64,000 nucleotides of DNA from assembly GCA_937139405.1 (NCBI GenBank), contig CAKZPV010000032.1, positions 1-64,000 of the forward strand, in the 5' to 3' direction. The stretch's first letter is position 1; each line of letters begins with the position of its first letter. A program made the position numbers and the translations under genes. The notes under the pieces were generated by a model. It searched no databases. It worked only from the letters and a program-made list of their open reading frames with translations, and had not been told where the DNA came from. Of the stretch, positions 15,476 through 39,279 are shown piece after piece. The stretch comes from an uncultured Nitrospirota bacterium. GTDB taxonomy: Bacteria; Nitrospirota; Nitrospiria; Nitrospirales; UBA8639.

Positions 15476-16549
15476 AATAATTCTGTACTTTCGTTCATGA
15501 GACAAGTAGCATTGCCGAGGTCTCGTTGATGAACCAGGTTCACACCAAACCATACTAATCAACTGCTTGAGAGAGGCAAAGAAAATAAATCGAAAATTTC
15601 CACAAAGGGAAGACCTATGTATGAATCTTTCTTGTTCTCCGCTAAGTGAAGAGATCAGTCATCAGTCAACAACAGACTTAACCGGTACGTCGTCCTTTCA
15701 TTAAGCATAAGAAGACAGATGAAACTCATATCCTGGAACGTGAACGGCATTCGGGCGGCCATCAAAAAAGAATTTGCGGCCTCGCTTGGAAGCATGAACC
15801 CTGATGTGCTGTGTCTGCAAGAAACCAAAGCCCAAGATGAGCAAGTATTGGAAGCCTTACAGGATATTTTCGGCTATCATATGTATACGAACTCCGCCAT
15901 CAAAAAAGGGTATTCCGGGACAGCGATTCTTTCGAAAACGCAACCGCTGAACGTAAGCAAAGGAATCGGGATACCAGAACACGATCAAGAAGGACGGGTA
16001 TTGACGGCAGAGTTCAAAGACTATTTTCTGGTCAATACCTATGTACCGAATTCCCAGAACGGCTTAAAACGCTTACCGTATAGACAACAGTGGGATCGGG
16101 ACATGTTAGCGTATCTGACACGGTTGGACACGAAGAAGCCTGTGATGTGGTGTGGTGATTTGAATGTCGCCCACAAACCAATCGATCTGAAAAACGTTAA
16201 GGCCAACTACAACAAGACAGCCGGGTATACCCAGCAAGAGATTGACGGAATGGATCAGTATCACAAGAAAGGATTCGTCGACTCGTTCAGACATTTTTAT
16301 CCGGAAGAAGAGAAATACTCGTGGTGGAGCTATCGGATGAATGCCAGAGAGAAAAATGTGGGGTGGAGAATCGATTACTTTTTGATTTCTGCGCCATTCA
16401 TGTCAAAAATTGAGAACGCCTTTATCCTCAATGACATCTACGGCTCAGACCATTGTCCCGTTGGAGTAGAGTTATAGGCAGTGTTGAATAAGACTGCCCT
16501 CTACTGGCAAAAAATGTCCGCATTCACGTTGAATATCAGAGCCACGGGT
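15309..16549 (+). repeat. 1.24-kb direct repeat, copy 1, carrying xth
   Basis: This segment is repeated at 18394-19633, offset 3085 bp. The first ~1070 bp appear identical by eye; differences begin near 16382 (within the last 100 bp of xth) and increase after the stop, where the copies also differ by an indel. The repeat contains an R1 end, a noncoding spacer and the whole xth gene. No terminal inverted repeats or transposase are visible. Confidence 0.9.
15719..16477 (+). CDS. xth: Exodeoxyribonuclease III / AP endonuclease, copy 1
   Basis: The 252-residue enzyme belongs to the ExoIII family, which cuts 5' of abasic sites and removes 3' blocks in base excision repair. The family motifs are all present: SWNVNGIRAA, CLQETKAQ, WCGDLNVAHKPIDL, GWRIDYFLIS and the terminal SDHCPVGVEL with catalytic Asp-His. 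The protein differs from the second copy at 18804 by one visible residue (Lys versus Gln in FMSKIE/FMSQIE). The duplicate gene with its upstream region suggests that both are expressed. Upstream AAGAAGACAG can act as ribosome binding site. Confidence 0.95.
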   Translation: MKLISWNVNGIRAAIKKEFAASLGSMNPDVLCLQETKAQDEQVLEALQDIFGYHMYTNSAIKKGYSGTAILSKTQPLNVSKGIGIPEHDQEGRVLTAEFKDYFLVNTYVPNSQNGLKRLPYRQQWDRDMLAYLTRLDTKKPVMWCGDLNVAHKPIDLKNVKANYNKTAGYTQQEIDGMDQYHKKGFVDSFRHFYPEEEKYSWWSYRMNAREKNVGWRIDYFLISAPFMSKIENAFILNDIYGSDHCPVGVEL

Positions 16550-17972: not shown

Positions 17973-18393
17973 CTGTAAGAGATTTGTATCATACAACGAC
18001 AAACATGTGGACTTGAGTGTATGTGAGAATCGAATCATTCCACCAACGTGTTTCCCCCCACTCAGATCCCTAATACTCCATGTCAAAAGAAACGGCATCA
18101 TAACAATGTGGCGGACAATGGCAGCCGTAATTGGTTTCCTGGAAAAGGAAAAGGAGTCAAATCATTTGTTGATGAATGATCTGTCCGCCACAGACAAAAA
18201 TGGCCAGATGGATTTAAGGTTTGACAAATCTCGCTTTGCGTGTAGCCAAGCTGCAGAATCCAATTCGACCCCCAAACATTACCGACAGATACTTGCGTCT
18301 AACTAAAAGAGAGTTGCCTTCTCTACCAAACTCCCTTGGCCTGGCGACATGGCCGAGCAGTGCAACCGGCACGGGAGAGCAGGCGAGCAATGT
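17973..18393. other. Intergenic, R1 end at its right
   Basis: No gene is supported. Positions ~18316-18560 are an R1 repeat copy in plus orientation (GACATGGCCGAGCAGTG block onward) that runs into the second xth repeat. 17973-18315 contains no recognised element. Confidence 0.45.
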
Positions 18394-19633
18394 GTGAGCG
18401 GAGCAAGTTGGCTCACCGCCGGTGTTGGGGAACTGTGCAGAACACCTGAAAGGTCATGGCACGGCCAACACGGTTTTGGGCATGTTTGCCGCAACAACAG
18501 TGGCTCGGCTGCCGGGCCGAACCCCGGCTTCCACTTCCTCAGCGACAAACCTTCAGCAACAATAATTCTGTACTTTCGTTCATGAGACAAGTAGCATTGC
18601 CGAGGTCTCGTTGATGAACCAGGTTCACACCAAACCATACTAATCAACTGCTTGAGAGAGGCAAAGAAAATAAATCGAAAATTTCCACAAAGGGAAGACC
18701 TATGTATGAATCTTTCTTGTTCTCCGCTAAGTGAAGAGATCAGTCATCAGTCAACAACAGACTTAACCGGTACGTCGTCCTTTCATTAAGCATAAGAAGA
18801 CAGATGAAACTCATATCCTGGAACGTGAACGGCATTCGGGCGGCCATCAAAAAAGAATTTGCGGCCTCGCTTGGAAGCATGAACCCTGATGTGCTGTGTC
18901 TGCAAGAAACCAAAGCCCAAGATGAGCAAGTATTGGAAGCCTTACAGGATATTTTCGGCTATCATATGTATACGAACTCCGCCATCAAAAAAGGGTATTC
19001 CGGGACAGCGATTCTTTCGAAAACGCAACCGCTGAACGTAAGCAAAGGAATCGGGATACCAGAACACGATCAAGAAGGACGGGTATTGACGGCAGAGTTC
19101 AAAGACTATTTTCTGGTCAATACCTATGTACCGAATTCCCAGAACGGCTTAAAACGCTTACCGTATAGACAACAGTGGGATCGGGACATGTTAGCGTATC
19201 TGACACGGTTGGACACGAAGAAGCCTGTGATGTGGTGTGGTGATTTGAATGTCGCCCACAAACCAATCGATCTGAAAAACGTTAAGGCCAACTACAACAA
19301 GACAGCCGGGTATACCCAGCAAGAGATTGACGGAATGGATCAGTATCACAAGAAAGGATTCGTCGACTCGTTCAGACATTTTTATCCGGAAGAAGAGAAA
19401 TACTCGTGGTGGAGCTATCGGATGAATGCCAGAGAGAAAAATGTGGGGTGGAGAATCGATTACTTCTTGATTTCTGCGCCATTCATGTCACAAATCGAGA
19501 ACGCCTTTATCCTCAATGACATCTACGGCTCAGACCATTGTCCCGTTGGAGTAGAGCTATAGGAAGTGTTGAATACTACTGCCCTCTCATGGCAAAAAAG
19601 TTCACAATCACGTTAAATATCAGAGCCACGGGT
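18394..19633 (+). repeat. 1.24-kb direct repeat, copy 2, carrying xth
   Basis: Second copy of 15309-16549 in the same orientation. Its right end continues into a long hairpin repeat (19629-19752) that is absent after copy 1, where a P-II fragment follows. The two copies bracket 1.84 kb that contains the HupE-like gene. Confidence 0.9.
18804..19562 (+). CDS. xth: Exodeoxyribonuclease III / AP endonuclease, copy 2
   Basis: This 252-residue enzyme has the same motifs as copy 1 and near-identical DNA, including more than 400 bp upstream. The visible nucleotide changes are clustered in the last ~100 bp, giving one amino-acid change (Gln instead of Lys in FMSQIE). Both copies have intact frames and the same ribosome-binding context, so two functional AP endonucleases are predicted. 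Which copy is ancestral cannot be told from the window. Confidence 0.95.
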   Translation: MKLISWNVNGIRAAIKKEFAASLGSMNPDVLCLQETKAQDEQVLEALQDIFGYHMYTNSAIKKGYSGTAILSKTQPLNVSKGIGIPEHDQEGRVLTAEFKDYFLVNTYVPNSQNGLKRLPYRQQWDRDMLAYLTRLDTKKPVMWCGDLNVAHKPIDLKNVKANYNKTAGYTQQEIDGMDQYHKKGFVDSFRHFYPEEEKYSWWSYRMNAREKNVGWRIDYFLISAPFMSQIENAFILNDIYGSDHCPVGVEL

Positions 19634-20571: not shown

Positions 20572-20868
20572 ATGGCAAATCCCAAACAAGAATTACTGAA
20601 AGCCAAACGAAAAGAAATCCTGGCCTTAGCCGAAGCACACGGAGCCGCCAACATTCGTCTTTTTGGCTCAATCGTCCGAGGTGAAAACACCGAACTCAGC
20701 GATGTGGACTTTTTAGTTCAAATGAACGAAGGGCGGAATCTATGGGACTTAATAGGCCTGACACAAAATCTGGAAGAACTACTCCATTGTAACGTCGATG
20801 TGGTCACTGAAGGAGGATTGAGCCCCTACCTGAGAGAGCATATTCTTGCCAGTGCGGCGCCCTTATGA
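20572..20868 (+). CDS. mntA: MntA-type nucleotidyltransferase antitoxin
   Basis: The 98-residue minimal nucleotidyltransferase has the signature FGSIVRGENTELSDVDFLV (GSx10DxD). In MntA-HepT modules this protein adds AMP to the HEPN toxin and so inactivates it. The stop overlaps the next start by 4 bp (ATGA), so the two are translationally coupled. It is part of a run of toxin-antitoxin loci from 20 to 24 kb. Confidence 0.9.
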   Translation: MANPKQELLKAKRKEILALAEAHGAANIRLFGSIVRGENTELSDVDFLVQMNEGRNLWDLIGLTQNLEELLHCNVDVVTEGGLSPYLREHILASAAPL

Positions 20869-21221
20869 AGGAGGATCGCGTCTACCTCCTGCATATTCGC
20901 GATGCCCTTACCAACATTCAAGAATACACAAGTTCCGGACGAGAGTTCTTCTTCAAGGACAAGAAAACCCAGGATGCCGTCGTCCGTAACCTTGAAATCA
21001 TTGGCGAGGCCGTTAAACATCTATCGGCGTCCTTGACCGCTTCTCATCCGTCTATTCCGTGGAAGCAAATTGCGGGCATGCGCGACAAACTCATTCACGA
21101 ATATTTCGGAGTCGACCTGAATCTGGTCTGGGATGTCGTGGCCACAGGCCTTCCAGATTTGAATCGAAAAATATCGGAAATTCTCAAAAGCCTCTACCCA
21201 TCGCAATCGCCTGAGACGTAA
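20865..21221 (+). CDS. hepT: HepT-like HEPN ribonuclease toxin (DUF86)
   Basis: The 118-residue DUF86/HepT protein carries the HEPN active-site pattern R-x4-H-x-Y in MRDKLIHEYFGVDL (about residues 79-92) and the GEAVKHLS helix typical of the family. HepT proteins cleave RNA and are neutralised by the MNT partner, here encoded immediately upstream with a 4-bp overlap. An intact module. Confidence 0.92.
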   Translation: MKEDRVYLLHIRDALTNIQEYTSSGREFFFKDKKTQDAVVRNLEIIGEAVKHLSASLTASHPSIPWKQIAGMRDKLIHEYFGVDLNLVWDVVATGLPDLNRKISEILKSLYPSQSPET

Positions 21222-21279: not shown

Positions 21280-21770
21280 TTAGCCTCCCTTGGTCTGGTG
21301 GCATGACCGAGCCGTGCACCTGGCACCGGAGAACAGGCGGGCACTGTGTGCGCACTTCGAGAAGACTCAGAACAGCCTCCGCGAGTTTCTCTCCGTATAC
21401 TGCAATGTTGATCCGACGCCTGCCGGCTGGCCCTAGGGAGGGGCGCGCTTATCAGCGTGCGGGCCTTGTTTGAGCGAAGCGAGTTGGGCCGCTCTCTGCA
21501 GAGTTGCCGGCCTGCCCCTCCTCAAAGCAGCCAGACGGGGCGTCAATGGTGTTGGCCACTTCCTTTCTTGAAGAATCACTGGTCTGGTGGCATGGCCGAG
21601 CAGTGGAACCGGCATTGGAAGAAGGCGGGCACTGTGTGAGCAAAGCGAGTTTGCACGCCGCCGGTGCCGGTGAACGGCGCAGGGCACCCGAAGGGCCACG
21701 CCACGACCAACATGGTTTTGGGCCCTTTTGCCGAAACAAAAAGACCTCGCCTGCCGGGACGAAACCCAGC
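21280..21770 (+). repeat. R1 mosaic repeat, plus orientation (longest left copy)
   Basis: This region contains nearly all R1 modules in order: a fragment at 21280-21355, then from 21376 the TATACTGCAATGTTGATCCG lead-in, the GACGCCTGCCGGCTGGCCCT block, GAGCGAAGCGAGT tracts, a GGTCTGGTGGCATGGCCGAG block and the GGTTTTGGGCCCTTTTGCCG end. It fills the gap between hepT and the parD promoter region. Open frames here are repeat-derived and not genes. 21771-21911 has no other feature. Confidence 0.8.
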
Positions 21771-22774: not shown

Positions 22775-22935
22775 CCGAGAAAATCTCACAGCATAATTTT
22801 CTATGTTATGCCTGACATAAGTCCCTAGTTTTTCTCTTTACTTCTAACAAATCAACAACTGCAGATCGGCCGACTGGGCTGACGTTGTATGTGTGAAACG
22901 GCCCGTGTCCTAGGCTAGTGAATTGATCCAGCCTT

Positions 22936-23163
22936 CGCGAGTTTCTCTCCGTATACTGCAATGTTGATCCGACGCCTGCCCGCTGGCCCTAGGGAGGGAC
23001 GCGCTTATCAGCGTACGGGCCTTGTGTGAGCGAAGCGAGTTGGGCCGCTCTCTGCAGAGTTGGCGTCCCTCCCTTCCTCAAAGAAGCCAGACCGGGCGTC
23101 AATGGTGTTGGCCACGTTTGCCGAAACAAAAGTGGCTCGGCTGCCGGGCCGAAACTCCGGCTC
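22936..23163 (+). repeat. R1 mosaic repeat, plus orientation, shortened copy
   Basis: This copy repeats the 21376 lead-in (TATACTGCAATGTTGATCCG) and the GACGCC block, then jumps from TGTTGGCCACG directly to TTTGCCGAAACAAAAGTGG, omitting the middle module present at 21557-21720. It shows that the modules can be lost cleanly. The rest of 22775-23322 has no gene; ~23160-23224 resembles the spacer that follows R1 before xth. Confidence 0.75.
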
Positions 23164-23322
23164 TACAAAATTATGTACTTTAGTTCATAGGTTGGGTACC
23201 ATTGGATTCAATAGATTGAACTCTTCGTAAAATTACACACTGAATTGCAACAACTATTTTTGCTCGCTGCTCGTTTCAAAGAAATTTCCAGAATCTTTTG
23301 CTCAATCCCCAAAAGGTGCCCC

Positions 23323-23640
23323 ATGACCCAAGACGCTTTACTCGAACAGGTGACCCGCACGATCGTCGAACGTTTTCACCCCAAACGCATCCTCCTCTTT
23401 GGAAGTCACGCTCGAGGCGACGCGGGATCAAACAGTGATCTGGACGTATTCATTGAAATGCAGACAACACGACGTCCTCCTGAACGAGCCATCGAAGTTA
23501 GTGCCGCATTTGGCCTTCGGCCATGGCCGCTCGACGTGGTCGTCTACACACCAGAAGAAGTGCAACGTCTTCGGGGAGTGAGTGGTACCCTCTTGTCAGT
23601 CATCGAGAAAGAGGGAAAAGTGCTCTATGAACAACCCTGA
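23323..23640 (+). CDS. Nucleotidyltransferase-domain antitoxin (MNT), second module
   Basis: The 105-residue protein has the nucleotidyltransferase signature LLFGSHARGDAGSNSDLDVFI (GS...DxD). It is paired with the HEPN protein that starts 14 bp before its stop. It differs from the MntA at 20572, so this is an independent module. The start is the ATG at 23323 with AAGG upstream; an 78-bp longer frame has no ribosome binding site. Confidence 0.88.
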   Translation: MTQDALLEQVTRTIVERFHPKRILLFGSHARGDAGSNSDLDVFIEMQTTRRPPERAIEVSAAFGLRPWPLDVVVYTPEEVQRLRGVSGTLLSVIEKEGKVLYEQP

Positions 23641-24025
23641 ATCAAATTTCGCCTCATGGCTCCACAAAGCAGATCATGACCTGTTAAATATTACGAATAA
23701 TTTGGCTGCCAGTCAGATCCCCTGGGATACCATTTGCTTTCATGCACAACAAATAGCAGAAAAAGTGTTAAAAGGATTTCTGGTCTACCATGGACGAGAT
23801 CTCCTGAAGACGCACGATTTGATCGCCCTGTTAGCACAATGCGTGACTCTTGATTCCCAACTAACTACCCTGGAATCAGACTGTCGAGCCTTAACCTCAT
23901 TTGGCGTGGCAGCACGCTATCCCGATGACCTCTTTGAGCCAACAGAGAGAGACGGACGCGAGATGGTGGAAGCCGCCCAACGAGTGCGGACAGCCATCCT
24001 GGCCAAACTTCCTCGATCTACCTAA
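23627..24025 (+). CDS. HEPN-domain protein, partner of the MNT at 23323
   Basis: The 132-residue HEPN protein has CFHAQQIAEKVLKGFLVYHG and LKTHDLIALL helices, and FGVAARYPDD near residue 100, the usual R-Y-P ending of this HEPN class. The HepT R-x4-6-H RNase motif is not obvious, so toxicity is less certain than for 20865. These HEPN/MNT operons are common in prokaryotic genomes. Its start lies within the MNT gene (14-bp overlap). Confidence 0.88.
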   Translation: MNNPESNFASWLHKADHDLLNITNNLAASQIPWDTICFHAQQIAEKVLKGFLVYHGRDLLKTHDLIALLAQCVTLDSQLTTLESDCRALTSFGVAARYPDDLFEPTERDGREMVEAAQRVRTAILAKLPRST

Positions 24026-24070
24026 AAAGCTTGCCAAGTTGCAGGCAATGCGACCCTCCACTTTTTCCTT

Positions 24071-24430
24071 CCGACGCCTGCCGGCTGGCCTAGGGAGGGA
24101 CGCGCTTATCAGCGTGCGGGTGTTGTTTGAGCGAAGCGAGTTGGTCCGCTCTCTGCAGAGTTGGCGTCCCGCCCCTCCTCAAAGCAGCCAGACGGGGCGT
24201 CAATGGTGTTGTCCACTTCCTTTCTTGAAGAATCACTGGTCTGGTGGCATGGCCGAGCAGTGGAACCGGCACTGGAGAGAAGGCGGGCACTGTGTGAGCA
24301 AAGCGAGTTTGCACGCCGCCGGTGCCGGTGAACGGCGCAGGGGACCCGAAGGGCCACGCCACGACCAACATGGTTTTGGGCCCTTTTGCCGAAACAAAAG
24401 GGCCTCGTCGTTCGGGGACGAAACCCCGTC
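24071..24430 (+). repeat. R1 mosaic repeat, plus orientation, directly left of the MZA-like block
   Basis: Nearly complete R1 copy, very similar to 21413-21770. It is the last plus-oriented copy; all copies beyond the restriction-like block (from 35.4 kb) are inverted. Confidence 0.8.
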
Positions 24431-24758: not shown

Positions 24759-26234
24759 ATGAATTATGAAATAACCAATCCTGATCCCTCATCATTAATA
24801 GAGGCATTAAGGGCCCTTGGCTACAACCTCCCCACTGCAATCGCAGATATAGTCGATAACAGCATCACGGCCCAAGCAAAAAATATTAAAATTAATTTCC
24901 ACTGGGCTGGTAAGGACTCGAGTATATCAATTCTTGATGATGGAGTCGGTATGTCTGAGACCGAACTCTCTGATGCGATGCGGCCTGGTAGCCGCAATCC
25001 TCTTGATCAGCGTGAAAGGAGCGATCTTGGGAGGTTTGGCCTCGGCTTGAAGACAGCCTCCTTTTCACAGTGTCGTAAGTTATGCGTTGCTTCAAAAACT
25101 GCAGGCGGTTGCCTGTGTGTTCGGTCGTGGGACCTTGATTATGTTACTCAAACTAAAGAGTGGCGTCTGAGAAAAGAACCGACTCTTGCAGCCGAAAAAA
25201 TTCTTGGAGAACTTTCCGGTGAAAATTCCTGGACATTGGTTGTCTGGAACGATCTCGACCGCCTGGTTGGCAATGTCTCTGCCCATGATCCTGGAGCCCA
25301 GTCCAAGTTTCTCTATGCCGCTGATCATGTCATTGAACATCTGGCTCTTACCTTCCACCGTTTTCTAGAGAATAGAGTACTGTCTATTTTGATCAATAAA
25401 AGAGAATTAAAGCCATGGAACCCCTTCATGGAAACCCATGATTTTACCTACCAGACTCCGGAAGAAAGAATTCCCCTTGGCAATTCCGAGGTGTTGTTTA
25501 AAGGATTCATTCTTCCACACAAAGATCATCTGAGCTCGGAGGAATATGATTTGAATGGCGGTCCGCGGGGTTGGAATGGAGAACAGGGATTTTTTATTTA
25601 CAGAAACCGACGTCTTCTCATACACGGCGACTGGTTACGTTTGGGGAGCCCGAATCCCTTGAGAAGGGAAGAGCAATTTAAGCTTGCGAGGATTCGTCTA
25701 GACCTCACCAATAGTACCGATAGTGAGTGGCAATTAGATGTAAAAAAGTCTACAGCCCGCCCGCCGAGCATCATTCGTGAACGCTTGACAGATCTAGCGG
25801 CGGCAATCAGATCTCAAGCTCGAGGGGTATTTGCCCATCGCGGCCAGTATGGCCCGAAGTCCGAACCTCAAACTCTTGAACGGCCATGGAGCCCGAGGAA
25901 ACGTAATGGACAACATGTTTATCTGATAGACCGCGCTCATCCTATGGTTAACGGTCTAATGAAAAAATTTAATTCGGCTAAACCAGAGATTGAATCACTG
26001 CTTCGTTTTCTTGAAGAAACCGTTCCAGTTCAACAAATCTGGCTTGATACGGCTGAACAGGTTCAGGGACAAGGCATTCCCTATGATGGGGTTGATTTCG
26101 AAAATCTGCGCGCTGATATGCGCATACTTTTCGAATACCTGGTGCAATCAGGAATTAATGCAGAATCCGCCCGCCAGAGGTTACGGGCAATGGAACCCTG
26201 GAATCGCTATCGGGACTTAATAGGAGACCTTTAA
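24759..26234 (+). CDS. GHKL (MutL/MORC-like) ATPase of an MZA-type system
   Basis: The 491-residue protein has an N-terminal GHKL ATPase: AIADIVDNSIT (N box, ~27-37), ILDDGVGM (G1, ~57-64) and DLGRFGLGLKTAS (G2, ~89-101). The rest is a S5-like and helical region with no nuclease motif visible. MORC/MutL-like ATPases of this kind occur as the first gene of restriction-like operons with Z1, DUF4420 and AIPR proteins; they are thought to act as ATP-driven clamps on DNA. Weakly supported upstream signals include an AT-rich stretch with TTTATAGT near 24696. The next gene starts 2 bp after its stop. Confidence 0.92.
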   Translation: MNYEITNPDPSSLIEALRALGYNLPTAIADIVDNSITAQAKNIKINFHWAGKDSSISILDDGVGMSETELSDAMRPGSRNPLDQRERSDLGRFGLGLKTASFSQCRKLCVASKTAGGCLCVRSWDLDYVTQTKEWRLRKEPTLAAEKILGELSGENSWTLVVWNDLDRLVGNVSAHDPGAQSKFLYAADHVIEHLALTFHRFLENRVLSILINKRELKPWNPFMETHDFTYQTPEERIPLGNSEVLFKGFILPHKDHLSSEEYDLNGGPRGWNGEQGFFIYRNRRLLIHGDWLRLGSPNPLRREEQFKLARIRLDLTNSTDSEWQLDVKKSTARPPSIIRERLTDLAAAIRSQARGVFAHRGQYGPKSEPQTLERPWSPRKRNGQHVYLIDRAHPMVNGLMKKFNSAKPEIESLLRFLEETVPVQQIWLDTAEQVQGQGIPYDGVDFENLRADMRILFEYLVQSGINAESARQRLRAMEPWNRYRDLIGDL

Positions 26235-26236
26235 CT

Positions 26237-29113
26237 ATGTCTGTGGATGGAGTCTCTGAACAAAAATTCAAGTTGGCTTTAGGTATGTGTCAAATGTTAC
26301 TCCGCAACCAGATGCCGGCGAATTCTACTGTCTTGCCACCTGATGCCATTCATAACACTGTTGAAGAAGTCGTGGTTCTTGCGGCGTGTTCCGGTGTCGA
26401 CAAAAATCGTCTTATTAAAGTCCTTGAGGAACGTTTTACGGTTCAGGCCCCAATCCACCGAACGCTTGGGAGCAACGACCAGCACATCGCATGGTTCCAT
26501 CAAAAGCGCGGCCAGATTCAGTGGCGTCGCTGGGACCGATACCAGTTGTATCTAGGGGAACAAATTTCCGATTCCGTTATTAAAAGCCACGAAGACGTTG
26601 TGGATGATATTCTCGCACGATTGGAAGATCCTGATGATCTTAGTGGGAGGGAAGTTTGGGATCGTCGTGGCCTTGTTATGGGCCACGTGCAATCAGGCAA
26701 AACCGCCAACTATTGCGGATTAATATGTAAGGCTGCGGATGCAGGTTATAAAGTTATAATCGTTCTTTCTGGCATTCACAGTAGCCTTCGGAGTCAGACA
26801 CAGATACGGCTTGATGAGGGGTTCCTCGGGTTCATGAGTGAACCTGGCGGCGGTGAAAGCCCACAAGCATTCCATCCAGTCGGGGTAGGCTTAATTGATT
26901 CCTCGGTCCGTGCTAATACCGCCACAAATCGCTCTCAAAAAGGTGATTTCCATAGGGCAAGTGCAAATAGGTTCGGGATTAATCCAGGCGGCCTGCCTCT
27001 TCTTTTTGTTGTTAAAAAAAATGCGACGGTTCTAGGACACCTTCTCAAGTGGATTCGTTCCTATACTGATGGTTCAGATTCCCAAGTGGATCGTCATTAT
27101 ATAAAAAATGTCCCTGCTCTAATTGTTGATGATGAAGCTGATCTTGCGTCAATCGATACGCGTCAGCAAACGTTTGACGAAAATAACAATCCAGATCTTG
27201 ATCATGACCCGACAAAGATTAATCAGTTAATCCGCAAAATTCTCCGACATTTCGGGAAGGTAGCTTATGTCGGGTATACCGCGACTCCCTTCGCGAATAT
27301 TTTCATTCATGAGCGTGGGTTTACATCGGAACTTGGAGAGGACCTTTTTCCACGTAGCTTTATAGTAAACATTCCACCTCCTACTAATTACATGGGACCA
27401 AAAAGGCTTTTCGGTATCGCGGGGGATGATATTGCCGGTCAGGAGGAAGTCGAGCAACTCCCTCTTTTGAGACCTATTCTAGATCATGCAGCATCCGAAG
27501 CTGTAGATGAAGAGCATGGGTGGATGCCTCCTAAATTAGTCAGACGCACTGAACACCAGCCCCTCTACAACGGAGAAAATTGCGTCCCTCCATCTTTGCG
27601 AGAGGCAATGATGGCCTTTATTCTGGCAACGAGCGTTCGGAGGATTCGGGAGTCTGGGCCTCTTTACAATTCAATGCTTGTACATGTAACCAGGTTTACC
27701 GAGGTTCAACGCCTAGTTTCTAAACAGATAGAAATCGCTCTCCGGGAAATTCTTCGACGGCTACAGTATGGTGATGGTGACCGTTTGCCCAGCATTGAGG
27801 ATGAATTCAAAAGTCTTTGGGACAGGGATTTTATACCTGCCAGTCAAAAGTGCCGCCAAACTCTCGGTGAAACAGAGGTGCCCGCTACACCCAACTGGGA
27901 TGAAGTGTTGGCGTTTTTGTACGAGGTGACAGCATCCATTCGTGTAAAGACTATAAACGGAACAGCCAAGGATGTACTAGACTATCTTGAGCACCGGACA
28001 ACGGGGATGAATGTCATTGCCATTGGTGGTGATAAACTCTCACGTGGGCTGACCCTGGAAGGGCTGAGTGTTAGCTATTTCCTCCGCTCCTCAAAGATGT
28101 ATGACACATTGATGCAAATGGGCCGCTGGTTTGGGTATCGCGTCGGATATATAGATCTTTGCCGATTATACTCCACGACTGAACTGTTGGGGTGGTTTGC
28201 GGATATAGCACTGGCAAGTGAGGAGCTTCAGGTGGAGTTCAAGAATATGGATCAAATTGGAGGCACGCCCCGAGATTATGGACTGAAGATTCGGTCGCAT
28301 CCGATCATGCTTGTCACGTCTGCCGTCAAGATGCGCCATGGTTCACAAATGAGATGTTCTTTTTCTGGGAGTGTCAGTGAAACAATAAAATTCCATCGCA
28401 ATCCTGATTGGATCGCACGAAATTTTTCAGCAGTTGACAAATGGTTAGCTTCCCTTGGGAGACCTTCGGCGGGAACAAGGATTGGTGGGTACACTTGGAA
28501 AGATGTCCCAGCTCAGAAAGTTATTGATTTTCTGCACTCTTATTCCACGCATGAAGTCTTTCGTTTGGCCGATGCCGGCTTGTTCATTAAATACATTAAC
28601 GCGCAACTTCCGCACAACGAATTGGAAAAATGGATAGTACGGCTTTGTTCCTCAGGAGCAGCCAATGCCCAAGTGGCAGAGTTGAACGGATTAAACATTG
28701 GGTTGATCAAGAGAACCCCGTTTCCAAAGGAACAGCAGAAGGATAGTTATGGAATTCGCCAGTTGGTCAGTCCCAGCGACGAGCTTGCCTATTTGAACGA
28801 CGAACAGCGGAAAGAAGCATTGCGGCTAACTGTTGAAAGATGGCGGGAGGATCCTGAACGAAAATCCGAAGATGTCCCCCCCACCAAACCTGGCCGTGAG
28901 GAAGCAAGAAAAGCAAGGGGGACGGTTTCCCCAATCGGGATAGGATTACTTTTGTTATATCCCCTCGACCAGGTACATGCCGGACTAGATAGAACCGTAA
29001 AACCGGTTATGGGAATAGCCCTCAGCTTTCCAAAAAGCGATACTGCTGTGGAAATTGCCTATACAGCCAACAATATCTTTACCAGTGGTGGTGGAGATGA
29101 CGAAAGTCTCTAA
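26237..29113 (+). CDS. Z1-domain superfamily II helicase/translocase
   Basis: The 958-residue protein has a Walker A GHVQSGKT (about residue 150), Walker B/DEAD-equivalent LIVDDEAD (~295), VGYTATPFAN (motif III-like, ~345) and QMGRWFGYRVGY (motif VI with arginine finger, ~630). This set defines the Z1 domain. The C-terminal ~250 residues are helical and unassigned. It would couple ATP hydrolysis to DNA translocation in the restriction complex. It starts 2 bp after the ATPase gene with GGAG upstream, and its end overlaps the next gene by 17 bp. Confidence 0.95.
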   Translation: MSVDGVSEQKFKLALGMCQMLLRNQMPANSTVLPPDAIHNTVEEVVVLAACSGVDKNRLIKVLEERFTVQAPIHRTLGSNDQHIAWFHQKRGQIQWRRWDRYQLYLGEQISDSVIKSHEDVVDDILARLEDPDDLSGREVWDRRGLVMGHVQSGKTANYCGLICKAADAGYKVIIVLSGIHSSLRSQTQIRLDEGFLGFMSEPGGGESPQAFHPVGVGLIDSSVRANTATNRSQKGDFHRASANRFGINPGGLPLLFVVKKNATVLGHLLKWIRSYTDGSDSQVDRHYIKNVPALIVDDEADLASIDTRQQTFDENNNPDLDHDPTKINQLIRKILRHFGKVAYVGYTATPFANIFIHERGFTSELGEDLFPRSFIVNIPPPTNYMGPKRLFGIAGDDIAGQEEVEQLPLLRPILDHAASEAVDEEHGWMPPKLVRRTEHQPLYNGENCVPPSLREAMMAFILATSVRRIRESGPLYNSMLVHVTRFTEVQRLVSKQIEIALREILRRLQYGDGDRLPSIEDEFKSLWDRDFIPASQKCRQTLGETEVPATPNWDEVLAFLYEVTASIRVKTINGTAKDVLDYLEHRTTGMNVIAIGGDKLSRGLTLEGLSVSYFLRSSKMYDTLMQMGRWFGYRVGYIDLCRLYSTTELLGWFADIALASEELQVEFKNMDQIGGTPRDYGLKIRSHPIMLVTSAVKMRHGSQMRCSFSGSVSETIKFHRNPDWIARNFSAVDKWLASLGRPSAGTRIGGYTWKDVPAQKVIDFLHSYSTHEVFRLADAGLFIKYINAQLPHNELEKWIVRLCSSGAANAQVAELNGLNIGLIKRTPFPKEQQKDSYGIRQLVSPSDELAYLNDEQRKEALRLTVERWREDPERKSEDVPPTKPGREEARKARGTVSPIGIGLLLLYPLDQVHAGLDRTVKPVMGIALSFPKSDTAVEIAYTANNIFTSGGGDDESL

Positions 29114-30107
29114 AGCCCTCACTGTAGCGTGGGAAGCAGTTTCTGCTGAGCTGGGTCGGAGCCCTGGGTATTACCATCGGCGGTTACAACTCCAAATTAG
29201 CCTGCCGGCATACGCAGGGGTAGTTGTCCCCGGAAACTTCCGCCGTTTATCGTTTGATTTTGAGGAATTATCACTACGTGGGTTGAACCTACAGGACCAG
29301 ACTCAGGGTTATCTGGTTGAAATTGAGCAGCAAATTGACAAAAAAAGGAAATTCGTACACCTCCAGCAAACCCCAGCTGCCTTACCTGAAGACTTGTTCA
29401 GAATTTTCTGTACAGATGTCCTCCTACACGTCGCCAATTGTGGATCCGAATCCGAATCCGGGAAAACTCTTCGCAACCGGCTGGAGCACTGGAGGCGCTT
29501 TTTTCAAAAACGTACCCAGGGAGGGCTTTCTCGCGAAGAATACATCGGCCTTTTTGCTGAAATCGAATTCTTCGAAATGTGCCTTCAACGGAATTTAAGC
29601 CCCGCAATTCTTTCTGATGCATGGCAGGGAGTACTGGGCGGAAATCAAGATTTTATGTTTGGAGAGATAGCTGTAGAGGTAAAAGCTGTTACGGCTAATG
29701 ATGCGGGATTCTTCCATGTTTCAAATCTTCGCCAGCTTGATGGTACTGGACTAAGGCATCTTTTCCTCAGTCATTTTGCATATGATTTCCGTGAAGGGGC
29801 AGGGCGCAGTATGACATTACTGATCCAATCAGTAAGAACAATGCTAAACTCAGATCCCAGTGCTCTAGCGATATTCGATGATCGTCTGGTTGCCGCAGGC
29901 TATATAGAACCTGATCATTCTCCATTTTCCGGTTGTGGATTTACAGAGCGGCGGCGTTCGTATTTTATGGTCCGTGAGGGCTTCCCGCGTATTCTCGAAT
30001 CATCTCTGGCTCCAGGTGTCTTTAATGTCTGCTATGCAGTTTACCTGGCTGCCTGCTCAGAATTTGTCATAACAGAGACTGACCTCATTGGTTCACTGCC
30101 ACGTTAG
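29097..30107 (+). CDS. DUF4420-type PD-(D/E)XK endonuclease
   Basis: The 336-residue protein matches the DUF4420 family. A nuclease core is visible as GLFAEIEFFE, then GGNQDFMFGEIAVEVKA (Asp, then E-x-K, ~185-196), the PD-(D/E)XK arrangement. It is the best candidate for the DNA-cutting subunit. The start at 29097 lies within the Z1 gene; a longer frame from 29055 is less likely because GGTGGAG precedes the 29097 ATG. The AIPR gene begins 6 bp after its stop. Confidence 0.85.
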   Translation: MTKVSKALTVAWEAVSAELGRSPGYYHRRLQLQISLPAYAGVVVPGNFRRLSFDFEELSLRGLNLQDQTQGYLVEIEQQIDKKRKFVHLQQTPAALPEDLFRIFCTDVLLHVANCGSESESGKTLRNRLEHWRRFFQKRTQGGLSREEYIGLFAEIEFFEMCLQRNLSPAILSDAWQGVLGGNQDFMFGEIAVEVKAVTANDAGFFHVSNLRQLDGTGLRHLFLSHFAYDFREGAGRSMTLLIQSVRTMLNSDPSALAIFDDRLVAAGYIEPDHSPFSGCGFTERRRSYFMVREGFPRILESSLAPGVFNVCYAVYLAACSEFVITETDLIGSLPR

Positions 30108-30113
30108 GTTATT

Positions 30114-32207
30114 ATGTCCCAAGAAACGGAATTGACCATTTTTCTTTACGAGCTAGAAAGCGATATTACGGAGATTGCGAATCCAGACGGAGATCCTTCG
30201 AGTGCTAATTTTCGTGAATCCGTCTTTACTGAAATTATCTCGGAAGAATTGGCTGTTTCGGGCATTCTGGAGTCCCCTGTTGTTTGCCACTTCGAGGGGG
30301 GAACAGGTTCGGGATCATTCAAGGTTAATGGTTATAGTCTTCCGGAAGAGGATTCCCGCCTCGACCTATTCGTCACCCACCACGTGAATTCATCAGATCG
30401 TCTGCAAACAATCAACGCTTCACATATTGAGGCGGCCTTTAACAAACTTGAACGTTATCTGGGTAAGGCAATGACTGGACACCATACAAACCTTGAGCCT
30501 GGACTTGATCCATACCTCATGACGGAGAGGATTTATGGGCGGCGTGAACGCATTGACCGGGTAAACTTTTCACTCTTTACGAATGCTCGCCTTGCGCAGC
30601 GACGGGAACGAGAGCGGAAAAGGGAGGTCCATGGATTAACAGCCACATTCGAAGTCTGGGATCTTGAACGTTTCCGCCGTTTGAGGGCAAGCGGAATGAG
30701 CTCTGAGCCTCTGAATGTAGGATTAAAGGGTTTGCCAAAAGGGGGACTACCCGCAGTGAAACTAGATTTGGGGGCAGGCGGGTGCCAAACCTGGGTGACT
30801 GTTTTCCCAGGTAAGTTATTGTTTGATCTTTATGAAGAGTATGGATCTCAACTTTTAGACCTTAACGTCCGTTCCTATTTGCAGGCCCGTGGTAAGGTGA
30901 ACAAGGGCATACTTGAAACTCTTCGTCAAAGCCCAGAGGATTTCATGGCATACAATAACGGGATCACAGTTGTTGCAGAAGGTGTAGAGGCCGGAGAACT
31001 ACCAGATGGATCAGTAAGAATCCTGGAGCTAAAGGGTATGCAGATTGTCAACGGTGGCCAGACGACTGCTTCCATTCATCGTGCGGTGAAGGATTTCCAG
31101 GTTGATCTTTCTCGTGTCTACGTTCAAGGGAAAATTACAGTGGTTGAACAGTCGAGATTCCAAGAAGTGGTTCCTCTCATCTCCAGGTATTCAAATTCTC
31201 AGAACAAAGTCAGTGAATCCGATCTTCGTGCCAATCATCCATTTCACGTGGGCATGGAAAGGGTAGCGCGCCGTGAGTGGGCACCAGACCAGAAGACGCG
31301 CTGGTTCTACGAGCGGGCACGCGGAAGTTATCAAACAGCAAGGTCTCGCGAAGGTACTACTCCCTCAAGGCGCAACGAGTTCGATAAACGGTATCCTTCC
31401 AGCCAACGGTTCACAAAGGAGGACCTGGCAAAGTTTGAGCATGTCTGGATGGGATTTCCACATTTGGTAAGTCGAGGTGCCCAGAAGAATTTCGTCCATT
31501 TCATGCAAAATCTCCATCCCTGTCCCGATGGGTGGGAACCGACGGTTGAGGAATACCGCAGATACATAGCGAAAGGCATTATATTTAAGGAAGTCCGGCG
31601 GATCGTGAGTCGAAATGAAGCAATTACGGCCTACAGGATCAATGTAACTGCCTACACTGTGGCATTGGTTGCCGATAGAACAGTCCGTAGAATTGATCTG
31701 GACGGGATCTGGAAGAATCAGGGTATCTCCTTAGCTCTCCAGGATACTATAGAGACCTGGGCCCCTGCAGTGTTCAACCATTTACCCGAGAAGGGTCGTA
31801 GCGAGGGGCACCACATCGAAGAATCTTTTAAAAAACCGGCATGCTGGCAATACATTCGTTCTCTCAAATGGGATGTTCCTACAGATCTTCAAAAGGAACT
31901 TGTTTCTTCAGTTAGATCGGCCGGCGCATCTGCAACTATTTTAGCCGCTACCAATTCAGGGCTTAACAATCTTGACCACAACAACATTGCTTTGTGCAAG
32001 GAATTGGATGAGGCGCAATGGCTTAAGATTACTAAATGGGGGCAGGAAACTGGAGAAATCGATGAGTGGAACCGAGGTATTGCCAGAACCCTTGCTGGTT
32101 ATGCAGCAGAGGGCTGGAGGCAGGCACCTTCGGTCAAACAAGCCAAACGGGGGGCAGCTATGATTGAGAAGGCCCGTAAGGCTGGCATGTCTGGCAATGA
32201 GTCATAG
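30114..32207 (+). CDS. AIPR (abortive infection phage resistance) protein
   Basis: The 697-residue protein belongs to the AIPR family (first noted in lactococcal AbiR-type systems). Hallmarks are FMAYNNGITVVAEGVE (~278-293) and MQIVNGGQTTASIHRA (~310-325), and VPLISRYSNSQNKVSESD further on. The molecular activity of AIPR is unknown; its constant linkage to Z1 and DUF4420 genes shows it is part of the same machine. It lies 6 bp downstream of the DUF4420 gene and 115 bp upstream of the methyltransferase. Confidence 0.93.
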   Translation: MSQETELTIFLYELESDITEIANPDGDPSSANFRESVFTEIISEELAVSGILESPVVCHFEGGTGSGSFKVNGYSLPEEDSRLDLFVTHHVNSSDRLQTINASHIEAAFNKLERYLGKAMTGHHTNLEPGLDPYLMTERIYGRRERIDRVNFSLFTNARLAQRRERERKREVHGLTATFEVWDLERFRRLRASGMSSEPLNVGLKGLPKGGLPAVKLDLGAGGCQTWVTVFPGKLLFDLYEEYGSQLLDLNVRSYLQARGKVNKGILETLRQSPEDFMAYNNGITVVAEGVEAGELPDGSVRILELKGMQIVNGGQTTASIHRAVKDFQVDLSRVYVQGKITVVEQSRFQEVVPLISRYSNSQNKVSESDLRANHPFHVGMERVARREWAPDQKTRWFYERARGSYQTARSREGTTPSRRNEFDKRYPSSQRFTKEDLAKFEHVWMGFPHLVSRGAQKNFVHFMQNLHPCPDGWEPTVEEYRRYIAKGIIFKEVRRIVSRNEAITAYRINVTAYTVALVADRTVRRIDLDGIWKNQGISLALQDTIETWAPAVFNHLPEKGRSEGHHIEESFKKPACWQYIRSLKWDVPTDLQKELVSSVRSAGASATILAATNSGLNNLDHNNIALCKELDEAQWLKITKWGQETGEIDEWNRGIARTLAGYAAEGWRQAPSVKQAKRGAAMIEKARKAGMSGNES

Positions 32208-32322
32208 GCAAATTAAAAATCTTGGCAGAGCTGGAATGAAAATTTTTTCTACTTCTTTCCAGGACCCAAAACTTTTACTCCGATTTCCCATACTGGTGAT
32301 AAAATTTTGAGGTAAGTTCCCA

Positions 32323-33588
32323 ATGGCGATTGACTTTAATGAGGCATTTCGTGTTGTTTTGGCCTTAATGAACAATGGCGTTCCTGTTCCAGAGCATTTT
32401 CGGAGTGAACTTCCAGCTATTGTGTCACACTGGTTGCACAACCCGATAAAAGATCCGCTAATCCTTGGAAATGTCGAGGGTGAGAAATGGCGAAGATTTC
32501 TATCGGCTTATGGAAAACTAAATCATGAGAGGTTTTTCATTTTAAAAAAATCTGCATACCTAACTCGAAACGGGTTTAAGGTTGATTTCACAGATTTCCC
32601 TTTTCCACCGACAAGTAAAAAGCCAAAGTTCAAGTTCATTGATCTGTTTTCTGGCATAGGTGGATTCCGCATTGCACTTCAAAGCTTGGGTGGTAAATGT
32701 GTATTTTCATGTGAAAATGATCCCATGGCTAAAGAAACCTATTTTAAGAATTTTGGTGAATATCCTTTCGGTGACATAAGAAAATTCACTGGGAAAGGTA
32801 TCACGGACCAAGAGTTGGCTGAGTTCATACCTGATCATGACATCCTGTCTGCTGGATTCCCGTGCCAACCATTCAGCAAGGCAGGTGTGTCAGCACGAAA
32901 TGCCCTGGAGAAGGAGAACGGGTTTTCATGTAGAGATCAAGGGGCTTTATTTTATGATATTCTTCGTATTGCTAAGATAAAACGACCTAAAGTCCTTTTT
33001 CTAGAGAATGTGAGAAACCTTGAAAGACACGATGGGGGAAGAACAATTCAAAAGATAAAAAATGCAATAGAATGTGATCTGGGTTATTCGTTTTATATGG
33101 AAGTCATCGATGCCTCATCTGTGGTTCCCCAAAAACGAGAACGTTGTTACATGGTGTGTTTTCGAAATAAAAGGCTGAAATTTTCATTTCCTAAAATTAA
33201 TGGCGCACCCAAACCGTTGAGAGAGATCCTTGAACCATCTCCTTCCGCTTCGTACACAATTTCGAAACGACTATGGGTTGGGCATCAGAACCGGACTGTC
33301 CGTAACCTTAGTCGTGGTGTAGGTTTCACAGCTTTCAAGGCAGACTTGAATAAACCGGCGAACACTCTTGTTTCCCGTTATGGAAAAGATGGAAAAGAAT
33401 GTCTGGTGCCACAGAGAGGGAAGAAGCCTAGATTACTTACTCCCAGGGAATGTGCTCGTCTTCAGGGCTTTCCGGAAAGTTTTATCCTTCCCCAATTTAA
33501 GCTTACAGCCTATAAAAAATTTGGGAATTCGGTTGTGGTTCCTCTCGTTAGAAAAATTGCATTTAAAATTACTCAAAAATGTTTTTAA
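32323..33588 (+). CDS. DNA (cytosine-5) methyltransferase
   Basis: The 421-residue Dcm-type enzyme has an N-terminal ~100-residue extension, then FIDLFSGIGGFRIAL (motif I, ~104), AGFPCQPFSKAG (motif IV with catalytic Cys, ~178), FLENVRNL (motif VI, ~226), QKRERCYMV (motif VIII, ~269), and RLQGFPESF plus GNSVVVPL (motifs IX-X). The short target-recognition region lies around residues 300-360; recognition sequence unknown. It should protect host DNA from the associated nuclease. The GC content of this gene is visibly lower than in surrounding core genes, suggesting transfer. Confidence 0.95.
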   Translation: MAIDFNEAFRVVLALMNNGVPVPEHFRSELPAIVSHWLHNPIKDPLILGNVEGEKWRRFLSAYGKLNHERFFILKKSAYLTRNGFKVDFTDFPFPPTSKKPKFKFIDLFSGIGGFRIALQSLGGKCVFSCENDPMAKETYFKNFGEYPFGDIRKFTGKGITDQELAEFIPDHDILSAGFPCQPFSKAGVSARNALEKENGFSCRDQGALFYDILRIAKIKRPKVLFLENVRNLERHDGGRTIQKIKNAIECDLGYSFYMEVIDASSVVPQKRERCYMVCFRNKRLKFSFPKINGAPKPLREILEPSPSASYTISKRLWVGHQNRTVRNLSRGVGFTAFKADLNKPANTLVSRYGKDGKECLVPQRGKKPRLLTPRECARLQGFPESFILPQFKLTAYKKFGNSVVVPLVRKIAFKITQKCF

Positions 33589-33807
33589 ATATAATCGGCC
33601 CTGGAAAACAAAAAGTTCCTGGCATTTCAAAGAGTGGCACTAGACCTTTAGTGTGAACTAAAAAAAATGTATTCGAATAAAAATATCCAAATTCCGCGCC
33701 CTCTTTTAAAAAGAGTACTTTTTCTTGTTGAAAAATATTTTGGTGCTGTGAAAATATTCCAGGATTGTCGAGGAGAACTTTTTTAAACATGTATTCATAA
33801 AAGAATT

Positions 33808-34233
33808 TTATTTTGTGCAGGCTTCCTTAGTAGCAAGAAACCGAAAAAGTTTTTTAGTAAGCTGTTCTGTTTTCGTAGTTTCACATTCCCATATAACTAA
33901 TACCTTCCACCCGAGAATACGAAGGGCGCGTTCCTTAGCCCTGTCTCGGGCAGCATTCCCTTCTAGTTTATTACGCCAGAAGGTGCGTCGTGTTTTTGGC
34001 AGCGTAGCATCCTTGCATCCCTTATGACGGTGCCAGAAACACCCATGTACGAAAACCACAGTCTGGTATTTTGTTAGAGTTATATCGGGTTTTCCTGGAA
34101 GATCTTTGCGTTGAAGCCTGAAACGGTAACCCATGCTGTGCAGGACTGAACGAACTATTCGCTCTGGGCCTGTGTTGGAGCCCTTGATCCGGCTCATGTT
34201 CCAACTGCGTCGTTCCTTAGTCAGATTGTCCAT
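33808..34233 (-). CDS. vsr: Very short patch repair endonuclease
   Basis: The 141-residue Vsr protein begins with a SWNMSRIKGSNT segment and has GKPDITLTKYQTVVFVHGCFWHRH (nuclease core with Asp and the zinc/metal site) and a KLEGNAARD stretch. Vsr nicks T:G mismatches that arise by deamination of 5-methylcytosine, so it accompanies the cytosine methyltransferase. It is convergent with that gene and 219 bp from it; the A/T-rich spacer 33589-33807 holds possible terminator-like inverted runs but no gene. Confidence 0.93.
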   Translation of the reverse strand: MDNLTKERRSWNMSRIKGSNTGPERIVRSVLHSMGYRFRLQRKDLPGKPDITLTKYQTVVFVHGCFWHRHKGCKDATLPKTRRTFWRNKLEGNAARDRAKERALRILGWKVLVIWECETTKTEQLTKKLFRFLATKEACTK

Positions 34234-35300: not shown

Positions 35301-35447
35301 GGATTATAAGTCGGTTGAAAAAAATCCGCGTGTCCAGAATGTTTTGAGAAAGAGCGCGGACTCATAGATGTTCATTCAAGAATACCTGCCTAGGGGACAG
35401 GGCTTGCATTCTATTCCTAGAACAGAGGGATGCTACAGGTCTTTTAG

Positions 35448-35926
35448 ATGCCGGGTCTCGGCCCGGCAGCCGAGGTCCTTTTGTTTCGGCAAAAGGACCC
35501 AAAACCATGTTGGCCGTGGCATGGCCCTTCGGGTGCCCTCCGCGGTTCACCGACACCGGCAGCGCGCAAACTCGCTTCGCTCAAACAATGCCCGCCTCTT
35601 CTCCGGTGCCGGCTGCACTGCTCGGCCATGCCACCAGGCCAGGGATTCCTCAAGAAAAAAAGTAGCCAAAACCATTGACGCCCCGTCTGGCCTCATTGAA
35701 GAGGAGGGACGCCAACCCTGCGGAGAGCGGACCAACTCGCTTCGCTCAAACAAGGCCCGCACGCTGATAAGCGCGTCCCTCCCTAGGGCCAGCCGGCAGG
35801 CGTCGGATCAAAATCAAAGCGTACCGAGACACACTCGCGGAGCTCACACACTGCGCACCTGTTCTCCGGAGTCAGCTGCACGGCTCGGCCTTGCCGCCAG
35901 GCCAATGATTCCTCCAGAAAAAAAGG
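35448..35926 (-). repeat. R1 mosaic repeat, inverted orientation, with extra 3' module
   Basis: Reverse complement of the R1 copies left of 25 kb: GCCGGGTCTCGGCCCGGC, then CCTTTTGTTTCGGCAAAAGG, the GGCATGGCCCTTCGGGTGCC block, GCTTCGCTCAAAC tracts, the GGCCAGCCGGCAGGCGTCGG block. A second partial end (35843-35926) follows. Open frames in both strands here are repeat products. Confidence 0.8.
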
Positions 35927-36218: not shown

Positions 36219-36428
36219 ATGGCCACGACCACAATTTCATCGAAATTTCAAATTGTGATCCCCAAGGACGTGCGAGAGAAGCTTCACCTCTGTCCGCAGC
36301 AGCGCTTACACGTCGTTGAAAAGGGTGGCGTGATAAACCTTGTGCCGGAAGTGCCGCTCAAAAATCTGAAGGGAGCCCTCAAGGGGATGTCCAAGACCAG
36401 CATTCGAGAAAAGAAAGACCGCCTGTGA
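36219..36428 (+). CDS. vapB: VapB-type antitoxin (AbrB/MazE fold)
   Basis: The 69-residue protein begins MATTTISSKFQIVIPKDVRE, the swapped-hairpin AbrB/SpoVT DNA-binding domain, followed by a flexible tail that would wrap the toxin. A strong AAGGAGG precedes it. Its stop overlaps the toxin start by 4 bp, so the two are co-translated, and it should autoregulate the operon. Confidence 0.93.
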   Translation: MATTTISSKFQIVIPKDVREKLHLCPQQRLHVVEKGGVINLVPEVPLKNLKGALKGMSKTSIREKKDRL

Positions 36429-36796
36429 AGATTGTCATGGATTCCAGCGGATGGATCGAATTCTTTACAGGAGGCCCACTCGCCAATCACTATGCCGCCT
36501 ATTTCGCCTCTCGGTATGACCGCATTACGCCAACTATCGTCATTTATGAAGTTTATAAAATCATTAAACGAGAAAAAGGTGAAGAGACCGCCTTATTATT
36601 TTCAGCCCAACTCAGTGCGAGTCATATTGTTGAACTGACAGAATCCATTGCCTATCTCGCCGCAGACCTGAGCCTCAGACACGGATTAGCCATGGCCGAC
36701 GCGATTGTGTATGCGACGGCACAAGATCAGGACGCACAAGTGTTCACGGGAGATGCGGACCTGAAGGACTTACCTGGAGTCATCTATGTCAAATAA
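36425..36796 (+). CDS. vapC: VapC-type toxin (PIN ribonuclease)
   Basis: The 123-residue PIN-domain ribonuclease has the metal-binding acidic residues in IVMDSSGWIEFF (first Asp), YEVYKII (Glu), LAMADAIVYATA (Asp) and VFTGDADL (Asp). VapC toxins cut tRNA or rRNA. The start is GTG at 36425, coupled to vapB. An intact, self-contained module at the right side of the defence island. Confidence 0.93.
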   Translation: MKIVMDSSGWIEFFTGGPLANHYAAYFASRYDRITPTIVIYEVYKIIKREKGEETALLFSAQLSASHIVELTESIAYLAADLSLRHGLAMADAIVYATAQDQDAQVFTGDADLKDLPGVIYVK

Positions 36797-36915: not shown

Positions 36916-36928
36916 CTTGTAGATGTCG

Positions 36929-37143
36929 ATGCCGGGTCTCGGCCCGGCAGCCGAGGTCCTTTTGTTTCGGCAAAAGGACCCAAAACCATGTTGGCCGTGG
37001 CATGGCCCTTCGGGTGCCCTCCGCGGTTCACCGACACCGGCAGCGCGCAAACTCGCTTCGCTCAAACAATGCCCGCCTCTTCTCCGGTGCCGGCTGCACT
37101 GCTCGGCCATGCCACCAGGCCAAGGAATCTTCAAGAAAAAAAA
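36929..37143 (-). repeat. R1 repeat, inverted orientation, short form
   Basis: Identical by eye to 35448-35660 over ~200 bp but lacking the GCCAGCCGGCAGGCG module. It is followed by an A-run and then another R2 copy, so R1 is sandwiched between two R2 units. Confidence 0.8.
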
Positions 37144-38605: not shown

Positions 38606-38725
38606 GAGGGCTTGGAGGCAGGTCAGGCATTCACCCATCACTCCCCAGCCCTAGCCCACATTCCTGAACCTTCAGAATGGTTCACTGTTCTCTCCGGGTT
38701 CTTGTGGTAGTTGTCTTTTAGATGT
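38606..38725 (+). repeat. R2 repeat copy joined to R1
   Basis: GGAGGCAGGTCAGGCATTCAC lead in a diverged form, then TTCAGAATGGTTCACTGTTC and TCTCCGGGTTCTTGTGGTAG, ending at the R1 copy that follows. 38451-38605 shows nothing. Confidence 0.6.
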
Positions 38726-38727
38726 AG

Positions 38728-38956
38728 ATGCCGGGTCTCGGCCCGGCAGCCGAGGTCCTTTTGTTTCGGCAAAAGGACCCAAAACCATTGACGCCCCGTC
38801 TGGCCTCATTGAAGAGGAGGGACGCCAACTCTGCGGAGAGCGGACCAACTCGCTTCGCTCAAACAAGGCCCGCAAGCTGATAAGAGCATCCCTCCCTAGG
38901 GCCAGCCGGCAGGCGTCGGATCAAAATTAAAGTGTACCGAGACAAACTCGCAGGGT
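38728..38956 (-). repeat. R1 repeat, inverted orientation, internal deletion
   Basis: ATGCCGGGTCTCGGCCCGGC to AAAGGACCCAAAACCATTGA, where it jumps straight to the GACGCCCCGTCTGGC module; the middle block found at 35510-35670 is missing. The deletion joins R1 modules at the same kind of boundary as in 22936-23163 (opposite strand). 38957-39279 has no supported gene. Confidence 0.75.
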
Positions 38957-39279
38957 TCAAACACGGACCGCCTGTGATGTTTAGCCTCAACGTGGGTGCC
39001 TGCTCTGTGTGTTCCTTAATACAGGAGCCAGACTCGAATGAAATGCACTCGAATTATGTGATCCGCAAAATGGTATTTCGAATCTGTCCCCAACCCTTGC
39101 CGATATGAAATTGCGTGGCCAATGTTGAAGTCCAACACCAAAGATTGGCATCATGTCACAAATGCTACCCATGAACGACGTGCAGCAACAGCTGTGACCC
39201 GTTCTCCCCATTACCCTTGGACAAGTCCGAGAGGTAAACCAGAGAACGCGGTGGCGTCAAATGATCTGGAGCTTTTCCC

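Follow-up and report, generated by a model that had tools for sequence, protein, structure and literature searches.

The six genes at positions 24759-34233 of a 64,000-nucleotide stretch of DNA from an uncultured Nitrospirota bacterium (the whole stretch is referred to here as the window) raise the question of whether DNA can be restricted according to the absence of C5 methylation by a block that couples a MORC-type ATPase and a Z1 helicase to a cytosine methyltransferase. A check of the open reading frames (ORFs) in the window recovered all six, in the following order:

24759..26234, + strand: MzaB-like MORC-family GHKL ATPase, 491 aa (Pfam HATPase_c_3, 1e-32; PADLOC MzaB, 1.3e-120)
26237..29113, + strand: MzaC-like Z1-domain SF2 helicase, 958 aa (Pfam Z1, 2.6e-77; PADLOC MzaC, 2e-223)
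29097..30107, + strand: MzaD-like DUF4420 protein, predicted PD-(D/E)XK nuclease, 336 aa (Pfam DUF4420, 1.1e-56; PADLOC MzaD, 1.5e-20)
30114..32207, + strand: MzaE-like AIPR protein, 697 aa (Pfam AIPR, 5.9e-94, and AIPR_N, 1.3e-35; PADLOC MzaE, 6.6e-106)
32323..33588, + strand: C5-cytosine DNA methyltransferase, 421 aa (Pfam DNA_methylase, 2.6e-75)
33808..34233, - strand, convergent: Vsr very-short-patch-repair endonuclease, 141 aa (Pfam Vsr, 4.6e-30; TIGR00632, 144.6 bits against a cut-off of 97.85)

Pfam, PADLOC, and NCBIfam were concordant on the family of all six genes, and the PADLOC run matched each of the models MzaB, MzaC, MzaD, and MzaE. Together with the ORF check, these searches bore out the coordinates, order, spacing, and family assignments given by an earlier, sequence-only reading of this DNA. 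The GHKL and Z1 genes are separated by 2 bp, the DUF4420 and AIPR genes by 6 bp, and the AIPR and methyltransferase genes by 115 bp; from its ATG at 29097, the DUF4420 gene overlaps the Z1 gene by 17 bp, with an alternative TTG start at 29055. GC content was 0.43 over the methyltransferase gene and 0.40 over vsr, compared to about 0.48. No promoter-like site turned up in the 115-bp gap in a promoter scan, in which such sites were rarer than in shuffles, and no family was found in an Rfam search of positions 19000-40000.

Integrity of the motifs was assessed for the core proteins using alignments of 72 relatives. The GHKL protein keeps its ATP-binding residues (N-box D33/N34, DDGVGM, and GRFGLGLKT), and the MORC S5 motif GhXhhpXXRhl is satisfied by GFFIYRNRRLL from G277. 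The Z1 helicase carries Walker A (GHVQSGKT, with K155), DDEAD, and DTLMQMGRWFG at 623-633, the last corresponding to the DThhQXuRhFG box. The DUF4420 protein retains E155, D185, E194-x-K196, and Q213, which are invariant across 43 homologues. Motifs I, IV (FPCQPFS), VI (ENV), VIII, IX, and X of the methyltransferase are intact, and Vsr keeps 28/28 positions that are near-invariant among 63 Vsr homologues. Inactivating changes in the Z1 or GHKL motifs, of which the sequence-only reading had seen none, were likewise not found in the alignments with relatives. Judged by sequence, none of the six genes shows a sign of decay, and the block is a real and apparently intact six-gene bacterial defense cluster.

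A locus of this type was predicted in 2008, and the window is a further instance of the described arrangement. Iyer et al. used the motif GhXhhpXXRhl to define the MORC proteins of prokaryotes and described a third MORC restriction-modification (RM) operon type that pairs an SF2 helicase bearing DThhQXuRhFG with an E-D-ExK nuclease, often together with C5 methylases and Vsr; AIPR is commonly encoded by RM operons (PMC2292703). Every sequence motif of this type is present in the window, namely MORC S5, DThhQXuRhFG, and E-D-ExK, as are the C5 methylase and Vsr, and no tested feature differs from the 2008 account, itself a prediction without experiment. The description of the block as restriction-like was right. 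The putative "Type II" systems of Miller et al. 2022 have a core of Z1, PD-(D/E)XK, and cytosine methyltransferase proteins with AIPR and a MORC neighbor (PMC9523054), all of which the window shares, whereas Vsr is an addition in the window. Because both the 2008 motifs and the 2022 core are present, the block belongs to an already described kind. In the CglI and NgoAVII RM systems, as in the window, a Z1-containing DEAD helicase is separate from the nuclease and accompanied by a DNA methyltransferase, and cleavage by the separate nuclease requires ATP hydrolysis by the Z1 protein (PMC4267653). Unlike the window, CglI and NgoAVII use a PLD-B3 nuclease rather than DUF4420 and have neither MORC nor AIPR (PMC4267653).

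The sequence-only reading had called the block MZA-like, correctly: the window matches B, C, D, and E of the MZA of Gao et al. 2020 (PADLOC/NCBIfam models) in order, but a search with the MzaA model gave no match in the window for this sigma-like fifth component, an absence the earlier reading had passed over. The mzaA gene, a sigma factor, occurs in only a few of the "Type II" systems of Miller et al. (PMC9523054). In an MzaC tree of 90 loci, a few of them incomplete (a quick LG+G4 short search with SH-aLRT support and no bootstrap), every MzaA-bearing locus fell inside one clade of 60 (SH-aLRT 100), where MzaA lies beside the core, while MzaA was found in 0/30 loci outside it. The window grouped outside that clade, with L032 and with L020, a locus from a second genome within the same order. 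Because MzaA is absent and the locus sits outside the MzaA-bearing clade, we regard it as MZA-related rather than MZA proper, and the sequences point to an MzaA-less sister form of MZA. MzaB to MzaE scored well under the NCBIfam equivalog cut-offs (501/850, 867/1500, 145/420, and 471/1050, score/cut-off); tested MzaA-bearing relatives also missed the MzaC cut-off, so these scores alone do not discriminate. L020 has counterparts of all six genes, identically ordered and oriented, at 59-71% protein identity, a recurrence that places the arrangement far beyond chance. The genome has one MzaC gene, and few genomes of the phylum have the family (9/296). Some relatives showed variant layouts. A second, longer AIPR-like gene directly follows AIPR in four MZA loci of the Massilia/Duganella/Burkholderiaceae group (L066, L073, L084, and L096); in Archangium (L029:12853-15534), about 2.7 kb, an apparent insertion of one or more genes, separates the Z1 and DUF4420 genes that overlap in relatives; and L028 has the order Vsr-MzaB-MzaD-MzaC with a window-type methyltransferase nearby and no AIPR found.

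Companion genes were counted around 58 loci from many phyla, each with all four core genes and no less than 3 kb of sequence to either side. A C5 methyltransferase lay within 5 kb in 53/58, Vsr within 6 kb in 50/58, and both were present in 47/58. Across phyla, these figures are too regular for chance, and they suggest that METHYLTRANSFERASE and Vsr are regular companions of the core and part of the system. The proposal that the methyltransferase supplies self-marking and Vsr repairs its side product thus gains good support from family-wide co-occurrence. The methyltransferases beside cores belong to several families, with position, strand, and family varying among relatives, as do the position and strand of Vsr, and the methyltransferase family changes at least 18 times on the MzaC tree. 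L055 and L044 illustrate such a change: MzaC is 90%, MzaD 79%, and AIPR 80% identical between them, compared to 28% for their methyltransferases. Their DNA homology spans the sigma gene and the core, ends at the L044 methyltransferase, and restarts in Vsr, while the methyltransferase of L055 is unrelated and lies upstream of sigma. From these alignments, the methyltransferase family appears exchangeable, L055/L044 representing one clean swap in which core and Vsr were kept. Retention of the same Vsr suggests that both methyltransferases may share a methylated site. The methyltransferase family of the window and L020 also differs from that of their core sister L032, and between these no local domain replacement was seen in MzaD or AIPR, divergence being spread along the proteins. 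A shuffled-label test of subunit covariation with methyltransferase type, which might mark the recognition subunit, favored MzaD and MzaB; among 30 disjoint pairs, 7 of them with different methyltransferases, only MzaB gave a low p value (p = 0.007, compared to 0.14 for MzaD). One tentative reading, to which we give little weight, is that the core might lack a fixed sequence specificity, being coupled to whichever C5 methyltransferase is co-encoded or reading the C5-methylation state generally, so that a methyltransferase swap would change the target while core and Vsr stay.

The recognition sequence, which the earlier reading had left open, can be narrowed. The window methyltransferase shares 44% identity with M.Ecl18kI of plasmid pECL18 and 37% with E. 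coli Dcm, and its target-recognition region aligns with both around RYxKDG. In SsoII-like systems the recognition sequence is CCNGG, of which the inner C is methylated (PMC3695355). The closest enzymes sharing this region are M.SsoII/M.Ecl18kI (CCNGG) and Dcm (CCWGG); the dcm-vsr pairing of E. coli also parallels the methyltransferase and Vsr of the window. The window enzyme differs from these relatives in its N-terminal region and in having RYG in place of RYY. By homology, the target is most likely CCNGG or CCWGG, although the RYG substitution would leave room for another site. Over 400 kb of the genome, under-representation of these sites was not exceptional, with observed/expected values of 0.93 for CCWGG and 0.89 for CCSGG. 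The site statistics leave CCNGG/CCWGG neither favored nor excluded; a recent gain would leave no avoidance.

Structure models shed some light on AIPR, the role of which had also been left open. In the AIPR model (pLDDT 85, pTM 0.54), the N-terminal domain is of the alpha/beta type, and in a second-look alignment residues 1-195 best matched restriction endonuclease (REase) folds: AF1548 (Z 9.8), FokI (9.4), AspBHI (8.9), HamA (7.9), and MspJI (7.4). An N-terminal HEPN domain has been proposed for AIPR (PMC3506569), in contrast to the REase-like alpha/beta domain predicted here from one model; other AIPRs may differ. Among 44 AIPRs, no lysine is conserved in residues 1-200, and the canonical (D/E)xK triad is therefore absent from this domain. 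Conserved residues instead cluster at 240-460, invariant ones including N281, N313, and Q316, and residues about 220-370 weakly matched ParB-N domains (Z 5.7-5.9). The model suggests that AIPR probably has a DNA-binding or sensing role, possibly with a ParB-like domain after the N-terminal fold; a non-canonical nuclease is also possible. For DUF4420, the AF2 model (pLDDT 94) has an EcoRV/PvuII-like C-terminal half, with Z values of 5.3-5.7 that lie in the range of chance arrangements, and its invariant catalytic set points to a complete nuclease active site. For neither DUF4420 nor AIPR did Foldseek against the PDB return a match with E under 0.001, and sequence relatives of AIPR or Z1 were not found in the PDB.

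Inverted copies of an interspersed repeat, 358 bp long, lie on either side of the block (24070-24426 and 35453-35807), and MzaC is absent from two same-genus genomes, an arrangement compatible with horizontal acquisition. Interspersed repeats, roughly 200-358 bp long and 82-99% similar to one another, lie at 24070-24426, 21412-21767, 22929-23167, 35447-35862 (-), 36928-37142, and 38723-38975, between toxin-antitoxin type genes, and dozens of related copies occur in clusters across two same-genus genomes. The surrounding island is rich in toxin-antitoxin genes, comprising HepT-like, nucleotidyltransferase-HEPN pair, and PIN genes at 20865-21221, 23323-24025, and 36425-36796, as well as an antitoxin-like gene. 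Farther out, a 1.3-kb direct repeat (15242-16549 and 18327-19633; 97.6% identical) holds an endonuclease/exonuclease/phosphatase-family gene in each copy, with a HupE/UreJ-like gene between the copies. A restriction-endonuclease-like gene of the REase-ARP family (PF22558, 8.5e-22) at 43342-44256 (-) had no PADLOC match. A large SNF2 helicase at 46880-50416 (-) scored against DpdE (3.6e-131) and ZorD (1.2e-107); other genes of those systems were not identified, and it is possibly an SNF2 protein of general function.

From the gene content, the intact motifs, the conserved co-occurrence, and the predicted folds, we propose, at a probability of roughly 0.7, that the block is a chromosomal ATP-dependent RM-type defense of the MORC-Z1-DUF4420-AIPR family, restricting DNA without the C5 mark. 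The methylation target, the activities, and their order are put forward conditionally. Host DNA would be marked with 5-methylcytosine by the methyltransferase, most likely at sites of the CCNGG or CCWGG type, and T:G mismatches arising from deamination of marked cytosines would be repaired by Vsr. On DNA without the mark, the core would assemble: the Z1 protein would supply SF2 ATPase/translocase activity, the MORC ATPase may act as an ATP-driven clamp or DNA-remodeling switch, as in MutL, and DUF4420 would be the nuclease, with AIPR probably serving not as a standard nuclease but as a scaffold that senses DNA or the mark. We favor this reading because the catalytic motifs are intact in all six proteins, those of the MORC, helicase, and nuclease being exactly as in the third MORC RM type (PMC2292703); because methyltransferase and Vsr accompany most cores (53/58 and 50/58) and all six genes are syntenic in L020 at 59-71% identity; because the target region aligns with M.Ecl18kI (CCNGG) and Dcm; and because CglI/NgoAVII cleavage depends on Z1 ATP hydrolysis (PMC4267653). 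Against it stand the close cores with unrelated methyltransferases (L055/L044), which would be unusual in a system that requires one site common to nuclease and methylase, the lack of strong CCNGG avoidance in 400 kb of genome, and the scores of MzaB-E below the NCBIfam equivalog cut-offs.

The same variation invites another explanation, in which the four-gene core is an abortive-infection or DNA-damage-sensing defense with a trigger other than methylation, and the methyltransferase and Vsr form a separate, neighboring dcm-vsr-like pair. The 115-bp gap before the methyltransferase, the GC drop over both genes, their changes of position, strand, and family among relatives, and the derivation of the AIPR name from abortive infection all fit a separate pair, but the frequency with which both genes accompany complete cores across phyla and their conserved order and strand in L020 do not, and we consider it rather unlikely. 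A complete, strict MZA (MzaABCDE) with its sigma-like MzaA encoded elsewhere would accommodate the PADLOC matches to MzaB-E, and sigma-type MzaA matches do exist elsewhere in the genome. These are, however, sigma-70-type matches to the C-terminal half only (positions 422-670 of 683), seen likewise in 10/14 control genomes, as expected for housekeeping sigma factors; with MzaA adjoining the core wherever its clade has it and missing from all 30 loci outside, a strict MZA is very improbable. Least credible is a restriction system that has decayed or survives as a silent relic: the repeats and toxin-antitoxin genes of the island would suit one, but full-length ORFs, tight operon joints, and the retention of all key motifs argue against it.

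Restriction of unmarked DNA by this block would bear on a little-studied group of proteins: ATPases of the MORC type have eukaryotic chromatin as a substrate as well, and hardly any experimental work exists on Z1/MORC/AIPR systems. The additions made here are modest: the MzaA-less state, the exchange of methyltransferases with core and Vsr kept, the predicted CCNGG/CCWGG target, and the predicted AIPR fold. With parts that appear intact and a methyltransferase target that can be predicted (CCNGG/CCWGG), the question of restriction by absent C5 methylation becomes testable.
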